A DNA stretch of 64,000 nucleotides from NCBI GenBank assembly GCA_031277855.1, contig JAITLO010000045.1, forward strand, positions 1 to 64,000, written 5' to 3'. Made by a program: the position numbers and the translations under genes. The notes under the pieces are model-generated. The model had not been told where the DNA came from. It did no database searches and saw nothing but the letters and a program-made list of their open reading frames with translations. This document shows, piece by piece, positions 2,711-29,216 of this stretch. Origin of the DNA: Acidovorax sp. (GTDB taxonomy: Bacteria; Pseudomonadota; Gammaproteobacteria; Burkholderiales; Burkholderiaceae_C). Position 1 is the first letter of the stretch. Every line of letters begins with the position of its first letter.

Positions 2711-3841
2711 ATGTTGCTGAGTTCTGACCAGGAGATGATCCGTGATGCCGTGCGCGATTTTGTGCGCGAGCAAATCACCCCCCATGCCGCGCGCTGGGAC
2801 AAGGAACACCATTTCCCCAAGGATGTGCACCAGGGCCTGGCGGCCTTGGGCGCCTATGGAATTTGCGTGCCCGAGGCCCTGGGCGGCGCCGGCCTGGACT
2901 ACATCAGCCTGGCCCTGGTGCTGGAAGAAATTGCGGCCGGCGACGGCGGCACCAGCACCGTGATCAGCGTGACCAATTGCCCGGTCAACGCCATCTTGAT
3001 GCGCTACGGCAATGCCCAGCAGCAGGAGCAATGGCTGCGCCCGCTGGCGCAGGGGGCCATGCTGGGCGCTTTTTGCCTCACCGAGCCCCATGTGGGCAGT
3101 GATGCCAGCGCGCTGCGCACCACGGCCACGCGCGATGGCGGCGACTACGTCATCAACGGCGTCAAGCAGTTCATCACCAGCGGCCAGAACGGTGACGTGG
3201 CCATCGTCATTGCTGTCACCGACAAGGCCGCCGGCAAACGCGGCATGAGCGCCTTCATCGTGCCCACCCGCAACCCCGGCTACCAAGTGGCGCGGTTGGA
3301 AGACAAGCTGGGCCAGCATTCCAGCGACACGGCGCAGATCAACTTTGAGCAATGCCGCATTCCTGCCGCCAACCTGATCGGCGCCGAGGGTGAGGGCTAC
3401 AAGATCGCCCTGTCGGCACTGGAGGGCGGGCGCATAGGCATTGCCGCCCAAAGCGTGGGCATGGCCCGTGCCGCTTTTGAGTGCGCGCTGCAATACAGCA
3501 AGGAGCGCGAGAGCTTTGGTCAACCCATCTTCAACCACCAGGCCGTGGGTTTCAGGCTGGCGGAATGCGCCACGCAGATCGAGGCGGCACGGCAGCTGAT
3601 CTGGCATGCCGCCAGCCTGCGCGATGCCGGCAAGCCCTGCCTGAAAGAGGCAGCCATGGCCAAGCTGTTTGCCAGCGAAATGGCCGAGCGCGTGTGCAGC
3701 GCCGCCATCCAGACCCTGGGCGGCTATGGGGTGGTGAATGACTTCCCGGTGGAGCGCATTTACCGCGATGTGCGCGTCTGCCAGATCTATGAAGGCACCA
3801 GCGACGTCCAAAAAATCCTCATTCAAAGATCCTTGGCCTGA
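2711..3841 (+). CDS. Short/medium-chain acyl-CoA dehydrogenase
   Basis: A 376-residue flavoprotein with the full acyl-CoA dehydrogenase layout: an N-terminal helical domain, a middle beta domain with AFCLTEPHVGSD and the FITSG FAD-contact motif, and a C-terminal helical domain. The catalytic base is Glu361 in YEGTSD, the position used by short- and medium-chain enzymes; isovaleryl-CoA dehydrogenases carry theirs elsewhere. The enzyme makes the first alpha,beta-desaturation of an acyl-CoA and passes electrons to ETF. The start is preceded by GGGAGAC. Leucine-pathway genes lie 15 kb downstream, but the Glu position argues for a general SCAD or 2-methyl-branched substrate. Confidence 0.92.
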   Translation: MLLSSDQEMIRDAVRDFVREQITPHAARWDKEHHFPKDVHQGLAALGAYGICVPEALGGAGLDYISLALVLEEIAAGDGGTSTVISVTNCPVNAILMRYGNAQQQEQWLRPLAQGAMLGAFCLTEPHVGSDASALRTTATRDGGDYVINGVKQFITSGQNGDVAIVIAVTDKAAGKRGMSAFIVPTRNPGYQVARLEDKLGQHSSDTAQINFEQCRIPAANLIGAEGEGYKIALSALEGGRIGIAAQSVGMARAAFECALQYSKERESFGQPIFNHQAVGFRLAECATQIEAARQLIWHAASLRDAGKPCLKEAAMAKLFASEMAERVCSAAIQTLGGYGVVNDFPVERIYRDVRVCQIYEGTSDVQKILIQRSLA

Positions 3842-3873
3842 TTTTTGTAGGAGCTGTGGCCCGTGCAGGGGCC

Positions 3874-3968
3874 GGTCATACGGCCCTGCATGCTTTGTTG
3901 CGCAGCCTTGCCGTGCGACAGCACTGTCTGCGGCTGCGACGCCGCGCCTTCAGGGCCGTCTGCCCGGG
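3874..3968 (+). repeat. Dispersed structured intergenic repeat, copy 1
   Basis: This is one of two full copies of an element; the other is at 28372. Three nested stems are visible: ACGGCCCTG (3879-3887) with CAGGGCCGT; CGCAGCC with GGCTGCG; and an inner GTGC/GCAC. The unpaired segments CATGCTTTGTTG, TTGCCGT and GACGCCGCGCCT are identical in both copies while the stem bases differ. It lies just after the acyl-CoA dehydrogenase stop codon. No protein gene is supported here. Confidence 0.75.
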
Positions 3969-4028
3969 AGCGTATTCACGCGCCCGCTACGCTGGGTAGA
4001 TAGCCACTACCCATATGCTTCCCCTGCT

Positions 4029-5036
4029 TTACTCCCTCGCCCCTCCGGGGAGAGGGTTGGGGTGAGGGGCTGCTTGCCCCACTGGCTGCGCATTCCGCAG
4101 CGCCCACAGCACGCCACCCACCAGCAGGGCAATGCCCATCAAAGTGGGGGCTGGCGGCCAGTTGCCGCGCAGGGTGTAGGCATAGGCCAGGGCGGTCAGG
4201 GTTTCGCAGACGATGAACTGGCTGCTCAGCGAGGTGGGCATGCGTTGGCAGGCGGCGTTCCAGCACATGGCGCCCAGCCAGGAGCCCAGCACGCCGGCGG
4301 CCACCATCAAGAGCACAAACATGGCTGGTTGCGGGCCCAGGGGCATGGCAAAGCTGTCATGGCCTTCGGGGGCGGTGGCCCACAGCAGCAGATAGCCCAG
4401 TGCGGCAATCGGCAGGGTGATCAGGCCCTGGGCCGTGGCCCAGGTGCGGGGGGCGATCTGGGGCTGGCTGCGCAGCCACTCGGCATTGCGTATGGGAAAC
4501 CAGGTCCAGCACATCAGGGCGCACAGCGCCATCAAAATGCCCAGGCCGTAGTCAGCCAGGTCGGTGCCGGCGTTGACCTGGCCCAGGGCCTGCAGCTCGT
4601 GGTGGTTGACCAGGGCCATGCCGGCCAGCATCAGGCCCAGCGAGGGGAATAGGCGCTGCCAGGCCATGGCCTGGGGACCAGCGCGCAGATTGGATGCAAT
4701 GGCAATCACCACCGGCAGGGCGCCGCTGGCGATCAAAGTGGGCAGCGGTGCGCCAGCATGCTGGATGGCGCTGGTCATCAGCAGGTAAAAGGCCAGATTA
4801 CCCACCAGCGTGAGGCGCAGGGCCAGCAACCAGGCCGGGCGGCGCAGCTGGCGCAGGGCAGCACGGTCCACCCAGGCCAGGGGCAGGGCCACCAGGCCAA
4901 AGCAGAGGTAGCGCCCCAGCGTCAGCAGCAGCGGCGGGTAGTCGGGCAGCAGCAGGGGCACGACAAACACCAGGCCCCACAGCACGCCTGCCGTGGTGGC
5001 GAACAGGCTGCCACTCCACAGTTGGCGAGTCACCAT
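4029..5036 (-). CDS. EamA/DMT-family membrane exporter
   Basis: A 335-residue inner-membrane protein with about ten hydrophobic segments in two EamA halves, typical of drug/metabolite transporters that export amino acids or other small metabolites. The ATG at 5036 is chosen because GAGGAG lies 5 nt upstream and the protein then starts at the first membrane segment; 39 extra residues upstream are polar and unlike the family. The last dozen or so residues (HPNPLPGGARE) are encoded by an intergenic repeat, so the natural C-terminus has been extended. The substrate is unknown. Confidence 0.85.
   Translation of the reverse strand: MVTRQLWSGSLFATTAGVLWGLVFVVPLLLPDYPPLLLTLGRYLCFGLVALPLAWVDRAALRQLRRPAWLLALRLTLVGNLAFYLLMTSAIQHAGAPLPTLIASGALPVVIAIASNLRAGPQAMAWQRLFPSLGLMLAGMALVNHHELQALGQVNAGTDLADYGLGILMALCALMCWTWFPIRNAEWLRSQPQIAPRTWATAQGLITLPIAALGYLLLWATAPEGHDSFAMPLGPQPAMFVLLMVAAGVLGSWLGAMCWNAACQRMPTSLSSQFIVCETLTALAYAYTLRGNWPPAPTLMGIALLVGGVLWALRNAQPVGQAAPHPNPLPGGARE
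4032..4068. repeat. Short GC-rich hairpin repeat (CCCTC..GAGGG type), copy 1
   Basis: A short palindromic element of the form TCCCTCGCCCC, TCCGGGGAGAGGG, then TTGGGGTGAGGGG. A related copy is at 20877. It overlaps the last codons of the transporter gene on the minus strand and supplies its final residues (HPNPLPGG). Confidence 0.7.
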
Positions 5037-27571: not shown

Positions 27572-28084
27572 ATGTGTGGATCAGAACTTCACGCCCTGCC
27601 CGAAGGGGTGCAGCGCGTCAGCCGTTTTTTGCAGGATGCCGGCCATCCCCATGCGCCGCAGATGCTGGATGGCGCAGCCCGTACCTCGCAGGAGGCGGCC
27701 GACCAGTTGGGCATTGCCGTGGGGCAGGTGGCCAAGAGCGTGATCTTCAAACGCAAGGAAGACGGCGCCCATGTGCTGGTGGTGGCCGCAGGTGACCGCC
27801 GTGTGGACGAGAAAAAGCTGGCGGCCCTGGTGGGCAAGGTGGGCCGGGCGGACGCTGACTATGTGAAGGAGCGCACCGGCTTTTCCATCGGCGGTGTCAG
27901 CCCCGTAGCCCATGTGCAGCCACCGGTGGTGGTGATTGACGATAGCCTGGCGCGCTTCGATGTGCTGTGGGCTGCGGCAGGCCATCCGCATGCGGTGTTT
28001 CCGCTGTCCATGGCCGCGCTCCAGCAGCTGACCGGTGCGCCGGTGGTGGATGTGGTGCAGGCGCCGGCCGGGGAGGGCGCATGA
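27572..28084 (+). CDS. YbaK/ProX-type aminoacyl-tRNA editing domain protein
   Basis: A 170-residue single-domain protein of the YbaK/EbsC superfamily, which hydrolyses mischarged aminoacyl-tRNAs such as Cys- or Ala-tRNAPro. The family's conserved lysine is in VAKSVIFKR (Lys55), followed by the VLVVAAGDRRVDEKKL strand and helix and GFSIGGVSPVAH, the characteristic GxxPxG-like loop. Cytosolic. The start at 27572 is selected because the frame upstream is not family-like. The stop overlaps the next gene's start (ATGA), implying coupling to the DUF1289 gene. Confidence 0.88.
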   Translation: MCGSELHALPEGVQRVSRFLQDAGHPHAPQMLDGAARTSQEAADQLGIAVGQVAKSVIFKRKEDGAHVLVVAAGDRRVDEKKLAALVGKVGRADADYVKERTGFSIGGVSPVAHVQPPVVVIDDSLARFDVLWAAAGHPHAVFPLSMAALQQLTGAPVVDVVQAPAGEGA

Positions 28085-28335
28085 GCTGTCCGCCCGCACA
28101 AGAAGCCCTGCTGTACAAGGCGCGCCAGGTGCTGGCGCAAGGCCTGCTGGATGTCCAGGCTGCCGAGGCTCCGCCATCGCCCTGTATTTCGGTGTGCCGC
28201 ATGGATGAGGATCGCAGCCATTGCGTGGGCTGTTTGCGCACGCTGGAGGAGTTGCGCCTATGGGGTAAGACCGATGCCGCCACGCAGCGCCAGATCTGGC
28301 ATGCCGTGCTACAACGCTGCGCGCTCACCACCTGA
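28081..28335 (+). CDS. DUF1289 small cysteine-rich protein
   Basis: An 84-residue protein. Four cysteines (35, 39, 48, 51) lie in CISVCRMDEDRSHCVGCLRT followed by LEELRLW, the DUF1289 signature thought to bind a metal or Fe-S centre. It overlaps the ybaK-like gene by 4 nt, and the pair is commonly found together in related genomes as far as I recall. Function is unknown. Confidence 0.88.
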   Translation: MSCPPAQEALLYKARQVLAQGLLDVQAAEAPPSPCISVCRMDEDRSHCVGCLRTLEELRLWGKTDAATQRQIWHAVLQRCALTT

Positions 28336-28371
28336 GTTTTGAAATTCAGTGGGCGCCTTGTGGTGAGGCGG

Positions 28372-28528
28372 CCATACAGCGCTTCATGCTTTGTTGCTCG
28401 CCCTTGCCGTACCCGGGTACTGTCAGCGGGCGAGACGCCGCGCCTGAAGCGCTGTCTGGCCGTTGTGGGGGAAGTTTGGGCGCACACTGCAATGGATAGG
28501 CCCGCTCTTGCAGGCATAGGGGCCGAAA
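28372..28528 (+). repeat. Dispersed structured intergenic repeat, copy 2 (with 3' tail)
   Basis: Homologous to 3874-3968. Stems: ACAGCGCTTCA with TGAAGCGCTGT (11 bp), CTCGCCC with GGGCGAG (7 bp), and an inner palindrome GTACCCGGGTAC. Every stem differs in sequence from copy 1 but remains paired, while the loop strings CATGCTTTGTTG, TTGCCGT and GACGCCGCGCCT are unchanged. The tail (CCGTTGTGGGG, then TAGGCCCGCTC..GCAGGCATA) recurs at 52452-52510. A 66-codon open frame across it (28339-28539) is judged non-coding. Confidence 0.78.
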
Positions 28529-28568
28529 AGATGTACTAACCAAGCCATAAGGTTTAAGGGAGCCGCTG

Positions 28569-29216
28569 ATGCGCGAGATCACGTTCTATTTGGATTTTGT
28601 GTCGCCCTATGCCTGGTTGGCTTTTGCCAAGCTGCCGGAGACGCTGGAGGGCATCAGCTGCCATGTGCGCTATCGCCCCGTGCTGTTGGGCGCTTTGCTG
28701 CAGCACTATGGCAACCCCGGGCCCGCGGGCATTGCACCCAAGCGTGCCTGGACTTATCGCCATGCCGAGTGGCTGGGCCATGCCCAGGGCACGCCGCTGC
28801 AGATGCCGCAGCAGCACCCCTTCAACCCGTTGCCTTTGCTGCGGCTGGCGCTGGCATGCAGCGATGACGGCTGTATCAACCGCTTCACGGCCGATGCCTT
28901 GTTTCGCCATGTGTGGGAAGGCGGCGGTGATGCCCTGGCGCCCGAGCGTCTGGACGCGCTGCACAGTCATCTGGCTGCGCAGTTGCGCAGCGATGCCGAG
29001 GCGCCGGCCCGGGCCAAGGCGCTGCTGCGCGCCAACACCGAGGCAGCTGTGGCGGATGCCGTGTTTGGCGTGCCCACTTTTTGTGTAGAAGGGCGCAGCT
29101 TTTTTGGCGCCGACAGCCTGCCCATGTTGCGTAATTTTTTGCAAGGCGATCCCTGGTTTGACGCCCCGCGTTGGGAGGCTGCTGCGGCGATTCCATCAGG
29201 GTTAACACAGGGTTAG
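28569..29216 (+). CDS. 2-hydroxychromene-2-carboxylate isomerase (DsbA/GST-kappa family)
   Basis: A 215-residue thioredoxin-fold protein. Residues 5-20 read TFYLDFVSPYAWLA; Ser12 is in the position that activates glutathione in the kappa class. The C-terminal thioredoxin part shows GVPTFCVEGRSFFGADSLPML. The family catalyses glutathione-dependent cis-trans isomerisation in naphthalene-type degradation, though many members have other 2-hydroxyacyl or disulfide roles. No aromatic-degradation genes lie nearby, so a different thiol-dependent substrate is likely. The start is preceded by AAGGGAGC. Confidence 0.87.
   Translation: MREITFYLDFVSPYAWLAFAKLPETLEGISCHVRYRPVLLGALLQHYGNPGPAGIAPKRAWTYRHAEWLGHAQGTPLQMPQQHPFNPLPLLRLALACSDDGCINRFTADALFRHVWEGGGDALAPERLDALHSHLAAQLRSDAEAPARAKALLRANTEAAVADAVFGVPTFCVEGRSFFGADSLPMLRNFLQGDPWFDAPRWEAAAAIPSGLTQG

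Follow-up and report, generated by a model that had tools for sequence, protein, structure and literature searches.

Copies of a probable Correia-type hairpin repeat behind genes of Acidovorax sp. and related bacteria

The Correia elements of Neisseria (CREE/nemis) are mobile repeats with about 100 intergenic copies per genome; the part of PMC2649163 drawn on here describes them as confined to Neisseria and their mobiliser as undetermined. They have been classed as IS630-derived MITEs (PMC2817692), a 46-bp NEMIS core has been reported in N. meningitidis (PMC2267715) and inversion has been reported, as cited in PMC10969869. Patterns of the 26-bp terminal repeat (TATAG[CT]GGATTAA...) are given in PMC2911385 and variants of the repeat in PMC5039591. 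In the open-licence literature no paper was recognised that describes the repeat treated below outside Neisseria, which is not proof of absence. ERIC elements of enterobacteria, to which it can be likened by description, are also intergenic palindromes, and they change mRNA levels at the 3' ends of genes (PMC10969869). REPs and BIMEs (GTAG, CGTC) are likewise intergenic palindromes found mainly 3' of genes, with alternative complementary stem bases and in clusters (PMC3733652); the main text of that paper mentions no Comamonas, Acidovorax, Delftia or Burkholderia.

The stretch of DNA analysed (64 000 nucleotides of Acidovorax sp., contig JAITLO010000045.1; the window) holds two copies of a hairpin of about 95 nt, in which three nested stems are set apart by two conserved internal loops (Table 1). 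A sequence-only reading had described two copies with common unpaired strings and three stems, on the plus strand behind stop codons. These strings and stems were present at both sites, and the hairpins begin 31 nt (copy A) and 33 nt (copy B) past TGA stops at 3839-3841 and 28333-28335, respectively. Both sites are read here, with a probability of roughly 65%, as copies of one Correia-type non-coding, non-autonomous mobile repeat which lodges at gene 3' ends.

Table 1. Positions of the two element copies in the window.
Feature	Position	Strand	Remarks
Copy A left flank	3842-3872	+	From acyl-CoA dehydrogenase gene (2711-3841) stop codon to hairpin
Copy A hairpin core	3873-3966	+	Model R1 row, 104.9 bits
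Copy A stems	Outer arms 3873-3889/3950-3966, middle 3901-3907/3932-3938, apical 3913-3916/3921-3924	+	
Copy A right flank	3967-4019	+	Extent inferred from other copies; conservation weak here
Copy B left flank	28336-28368	+	From DUF1289 gene (27967-28335) stop codon to hairpin
Copy B hairpin core	28369-28462	+	Model R1 row, 125.2 bits
Copy B stems	Outer arms 28369-28385/28446-28462, middle 28397-28403/28428-28434, apical 28409-28412/28417-28420	+	
Copy B right flank	28463-28515	+	Bears the GGCCCGCTC..GC end typical of element copies

The copy B stretch 28369-28469 folded at -55.8 kcal/mol (z -5.2), a value equalled by none of 200 shuffles; the copy A stretch 3873-3973 gave a weaker fold alone (z -1.5), which 15 of 200 shuffles equalled. 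Comparison with Rfam 15 returned no family above the gathering threshold in the window, nothing at E ≤ 5 over 28300-28600 around copy B, and a single weak match, outside the element, on four further element loci. A search for a plasmid or phage vehicle for the window copy gave no match. A DsbA-like gene lies 3' of copy B, starting at 28569. After copy A, at about 4021-4079, the window also contains a second GC-rich dispersed repeat (CTCGCCCCTCCGGGGAGAGGGTTGGGGTGAGGGG), which recurs in genomes G032, G462 and G027.

Of the 21 genomic occurrences of the string GACGCCGCGCCT, 19 lie in full element copies and two are chance matches. The 19 full copies form a gap-free alignment of 101 columns (A1); conserved sequence extends beyond this core by about 31 nt on the left and about 46 nt on the right, which puts the element at about 180 bp. 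A covariance-model search of the genome (model R1, E ≤ 0.001) returned 103 rows, comprising 72 strong copies (≥ 90 bits), nine of lower score and 22 echoes that the palindrome gives on the opposite strand. Of 5734 first-look candidates 150 were scored, and the strong copies number at least 72. The echoes and four weak rows (34.6-51.6 bits) were omitted and the other 77 rows were retrieved. The 30 copies behind a wider model, R2, come from the own genome and from seven relatives in the same genus; R2 aligned 80 own-genome rows, 77 of them distinct.

That the fold is maintained across the copies, as the sequence-only reading had proposed from two, is supported by changes on both sides of the stems. 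In A1 both sides had changed in 14 of 27 pairs, compared with 4.6 in shuffles (0 of 500 as high), and 96.5% of the cells were paired, against 26-51% in slid controls. Stems did not come apart when further copies were added: the 77 distinct copies gave both-side changes in 25 of 29 pairs (11.3 in shuffles; 0 of 500) with 95.4% of the cells paired (slid controls 24-47%). The 77-copy alignment is fitted to model R2; A1 and a further alignment, A2, are not, yet agree with it. The two internal loops, ATGCTTTGTTG with ACGCCGCGCCT and TTGCC with TGTCTGC, are almost invariant while the stems vary.

Within contigs, 11 of 48 gaps between copies were under 3.5 kb, where 4.3 were expected (p 0.002) on the assumption of 77 copies placed at random on one line. 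Close-set copies often lie 2.7-3.1 kb apart with ordinary genes between them (C26:75708/78475, C24:12309/15118 and C47:114826/117924). Composite units between such copies were considered and rejected: among ten proteins in or beside four pairs, six had ordinary Pfam domains and four had none. A sister repeat that keeps the frame but has another tip (GTTGC-stem-CTCGCAATAGCnnnGCTATTGCTGCG-stem-GCGCCTTG) was also observed, for example at G462 C2:362999 (L323, L363) and in the own genome at C1:209152 and C27:112028. Its pattern (≤ 3 mismatches, one strand) was found 74 times in G462, 43 times in G032, 25 times in the own genome and once in G004 (reversed-pattern control 0-2), and it is still scored by R2 at 31-40 bits. 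Since copies of it stand at own contig ends (C1:47, C45:47, C48:12, C27:129663, C39:155208 and C47:118926), it probably belongs to a longer repeat at which the assembly broke off.

Orthologous spacers differ between species in the presence, absence and inversion of the element. Relative G032 has at least 66 strong copies; relative G004, which is less close than G032, has no R1 match. Twenty own loci were mapped in an 800-kb part of G032, with flanks mostly 86-95% identical, and 19 of them hold the element there; with both window loci included, it is present at 21 of 22 sites, in the same orientation at 19 and inverted at two, one of which is copy B. Copy A is identical in G032 across 94 bp (3877-3970) and its flanks differ. 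At the exception, C47_117924, G032 has no element and the spacer retains the apparent right end of a copy. G004 is without the element at 14 of 14 sites (12 of 12 mapped and both window sites), and R2 found no match in the G004 stretches and the 28372 spacers of G460, G028, G022 and G006 (26 loci, 402 806 bases). The element-free spacers of G004 are too diverged for ends or a target duplication, such as that of the TA at which Correia elements insert, to be read, and loss in G004 is possible. Sites shared at about 90% identity imply that most copies are old, and no recent jump was seen in the orthologous-site comparison.

In the 19 same-orientation pairs with G032, 499 of 548 pair cells were unchanged; ten had changed on both sides and still paired, three had changed on both sides and were broken, and one-sided changes left six paired and 30 broken. 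Compensation is present between orthologous copies, but most recent changes are uncompensated. Whole apical blocks of six bases are often swapped (GTACCGAGGTAC versus GTAGATGACTAC), a pattern consistent with conversion among copies or with copying inside the palindrome, and whole stem types also differ between orthologues in flanks about 90% identical. Such events could be taken to explain the stems with no selection on structure at all, template switching in the palindrome or inter-copy conversion rewriting both arms together; the 201 cells of A2 changed on both sides, set against one changed on one side with pairing kept, speak for this process. We regard the explanation as rather unlikely, because pairs are kept across genera in arms of little common sequence and because the strand bias of imperfect pairs (see below) would not be expected from copying alone.

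That the core of the window repeat is the core of the neisserial Correia element, which the sequence-only reading had missed, is well supported by sequence comparison. Model R2, which contains same-genus copies only and no Neisseria sequences, scored 42.4 bits against a gonococcal element (L349), aligned along all 100 positions (E 1.4e-10 in 4.0 kb), and 53.9 bits against the element L352 of genome G565, again at full length (E 3.4e-11 for that genome). Mismatches to the published Correia repeat numbered zero in L352, one in L349 and six in the copies of a Neisseria MAG. One of these MAG copies, used as a query, matched two 2.17-Mb N. gonorrhoeae records, which are filed as plasmids, with 81% identity (114 of 141 bases), at no fewer than 40 places in each. 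In the Neisseria-type copies examined the hairpin core, GTTG..CTTGCCGTAC..GTACTGTC.GCGG..CGCCTTGTC, can be aligned with R2 throughout, whereas the outer arms read TATAGT..AAATTTAAA in Neisseria (TATAGT..TTAAATTTAAA in the MAG copies) and are GC-rich in the own genome. None of the 77 own copies came within three mismatches of the four published patterns of the terminal repeat (the best had nine), so the repeat was not filed as a CREE; only the core is shared. Both are dispersed as many intergenic copies, but gonococcal Correia copies often lie 5' of genes (76 in FA1090, according to the part of PMC2649163 cited) and own-genome copies lie 3'.

Matches to R2 were found in the family in 175 of 399 genomes, representing 79 of the 141 genera sampled, and in the phylum in 37 of 398 genomes (26 of 212 genera sampled), the own genome being counted in both. 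Ten candidates were scored per genome, so that copy numbers are lower bounds; the cut-off, E ≤ 0.001 for each genome, would be expected to admit about 0.4 false genomes per survey. A pattern scan of named genomes gave at least 115 stretches, with 80 loci among the matches listed, which include Massilia, Janthinobacterium, Diaphorobacter, Duganella, Undibacterium, Azonexus, Rhodoferax and the Neisseria MAG. The outer arms differ by lineage: Janthinobacterium has both an A run and a T run in 20 of 22 rows and Massilia in 15 of 30, and both runs are missing from seven of seven Diaphorobacter rows and from 78 of the 80 own rows. Tandem arrays of four copies each occur in G031 (L066 2402-3165, steps of 221 bp) and in Janthinobacterium (L186 5924-6695 and L270 1538-1900, with steps of 217-228 and about 115 bp). 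The Massilia litorea plasmid NZ_CP062942.1 (L350 1477-1578) carries a relative of the whole element (72.5 bits), with a D-amino acid dehydrogenase gene on one side and a SIR2-family gene on the other.

Gene context was determined with a custom approximate ORF caller, using codon usage from 27 long window ORFs, for the 72 of the 77 retrieved copies that scored at least 90 bits. None of the 72 lies inside a called gene; 42 are between convergent genes, 15 tandem sense, 13 tandem antisense and two divergent, and 70 lie 3' of the stop of at least one gene, in agreement with the location at mRNA 3' ends that had been suggested for the two window copies. The left end is mostly just behind the stop. 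With a same-strand upstream gene, the hairpin starts 25-56 nt past the stop in 48 of 57 copies, roughly what the conserved left flank measures, and in five diverged copies it begins 2-10 nt past the stop. Among the 85 other-genus matches at named loci (alignment A4, 87 rows minus two echoes), 29 were tandem sense, 26 convergent, 12 tandem antisense and eight divergent, with four inside ORFs and six with one side unknown. In Massilia, eight of 18 left ends and seven of 15 right ends lie no more than 7 nt from a stop.

This placement, with so many convergent and only two divergent sites and with stems that are kept, would also suit a resident mRNA 3'-end element, a hairpin that processes, stabilises or terminates the upstream transcript and whose copies are kept for that job and are not parasitic. 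The paired A and T runs of the Janthinobacterium and Massilia arms, as found in two-way terminators, point the same way, and a T run follows the GC stem in 21 of 22 and 20 of 30 rows of these genera, respectively. The explanation is possible, though we think it doubtful, for the own-genome arms almost always lack such runs, the antisense orientation is taken by 13 of the 28 copies between tandem genes, and G004 does without the element at every site compared. Moreover, by eye, a hairpin resembling a terminator, T run included, already stands between stop and copy in four of the nine copies more than 56 nt from the stop. An intrinsic terminator was rejected for the own genome, a T run being present in only two of 80 rows, and neither terminator-like nor sigma-70-like sites were called at either window copy, the latter result bearing on the promoters that mark the ends of Correia elements.

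Movement as a REP or REPIN by a RAYT (Y1 tyrosine) transposase, a substrate of which had been one suggestion of the sequence-only reading, would share with the element the intergenic palindromes behind genes, the tandem arrays and perhaps a strand preference. REPs, however, are 20-40 bp long with a tag beside one stem (PMC3733652, in the part cited), whereas the element is one hairpin of about 95 nt with fixed internal loops. No GTAG tag was seen outside its stem; copies of the GACG type do offer a CGTC on their minus strand, but this overlaps the middle stem, and the stem lacks the AT pairs described for CGTC families. The own genome has a single Y1_Tnp gene (L069 about 1830-2550; C1:178376), and 14 Y1_Tnp matches were found in 13 of the 15 element-bearing genomes searched, leaving two with no match. 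Within about 1.5 kb of the own gene or the 14 matches (53 453 bases) there was no element copy, and no RAYT gene flanked by the element was found. The own Y1_Tnp gene was read as lying just upstream of an apparent glutamate synthase gene, with no copy beside it. We consider a RAYT substrate of the usual form very improbable; of the earlier interpretation, the kept structure and the place at gene 3' ends stood and the REP-type substrate did not.

Imperfect pairs showed a strand bias. In own copies 53 were A.C and 12 G.T (22 versus eight distinct position-types), and conserved unpaired columns showed no bias (G>A 8, C>T 7). The 87 rows from the 80 named loci, still including two echoes, gave 119 A.C and 37 G.T (29 versus 21 distinct types), and the A.C:G.T ratio in the outer stem was 26:9 in Janthinobacterium, 36:4 in Massilia, 1:1 in Diaphorobacter and 33:10 in others. 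Counted per sequence, A.C led G.T by 34 versus 7 and 52 versus 12, with relatedness making p values too small. Read on the opposite strand, an A.C becomes a G.T, so the excess hints that the strand which folds is the complement of the reported one. In other genera the minus strand folded more stably in 61 and the plus strand in 17 of 78 cases, and the minus-strand advantage persisted with G-U pairs forbidden; for the 77 own copies the figures were 39 versus 37, which does not favour the complement. A plus-strand RNA, judged from wobble pairs, was rejected, as the A.C excess points the opposite way; the own-copy folding energies were undecided on it.

The reading as a Correia-type mobile repeat is met on the other side by several observations: no exact empty site, no mobiliser and no Correia terminal repeat were found, and broken one-sided changes exceed compensated ones between orthologues. 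The repeat has likely spread as DNA. It may have been mobilised in trans by an enzyme, with copies landing or surviving directly downstream of genes. The hairpin would persist through a need to fold when single-stranded, be it ssDNA in transit or RNA at the 3' end of a transcript; in such RNA it may be bound or cleaved by RNase III, as published work on Correia elements suggests by analogy. Tentatively, the moving unit might be the hairpin core and not the terminal repeat: an old proteobacterial element would be recognised by some enzyme as a single folded strand, change its arms freely from lineage to lineage and land flush behind stops. The Correia element of Neisseria would then represent one of its branches and not an IS630-derived MITE.

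The common core with Neisseria suggests, from sequence comparison, that the age and the distribution of the repeat go beyond a single genus. With this core present under other arms in so many of the genera sampled in the family and the phylum, the question of these elements widens from one genus to a large clade, and many environmental genomes become available for a search for the mobiliser, for a target rule and for any effect on RNA. The placement behind stop codons and the strand bias of imperfect pairs are concrete predictions open to testing.
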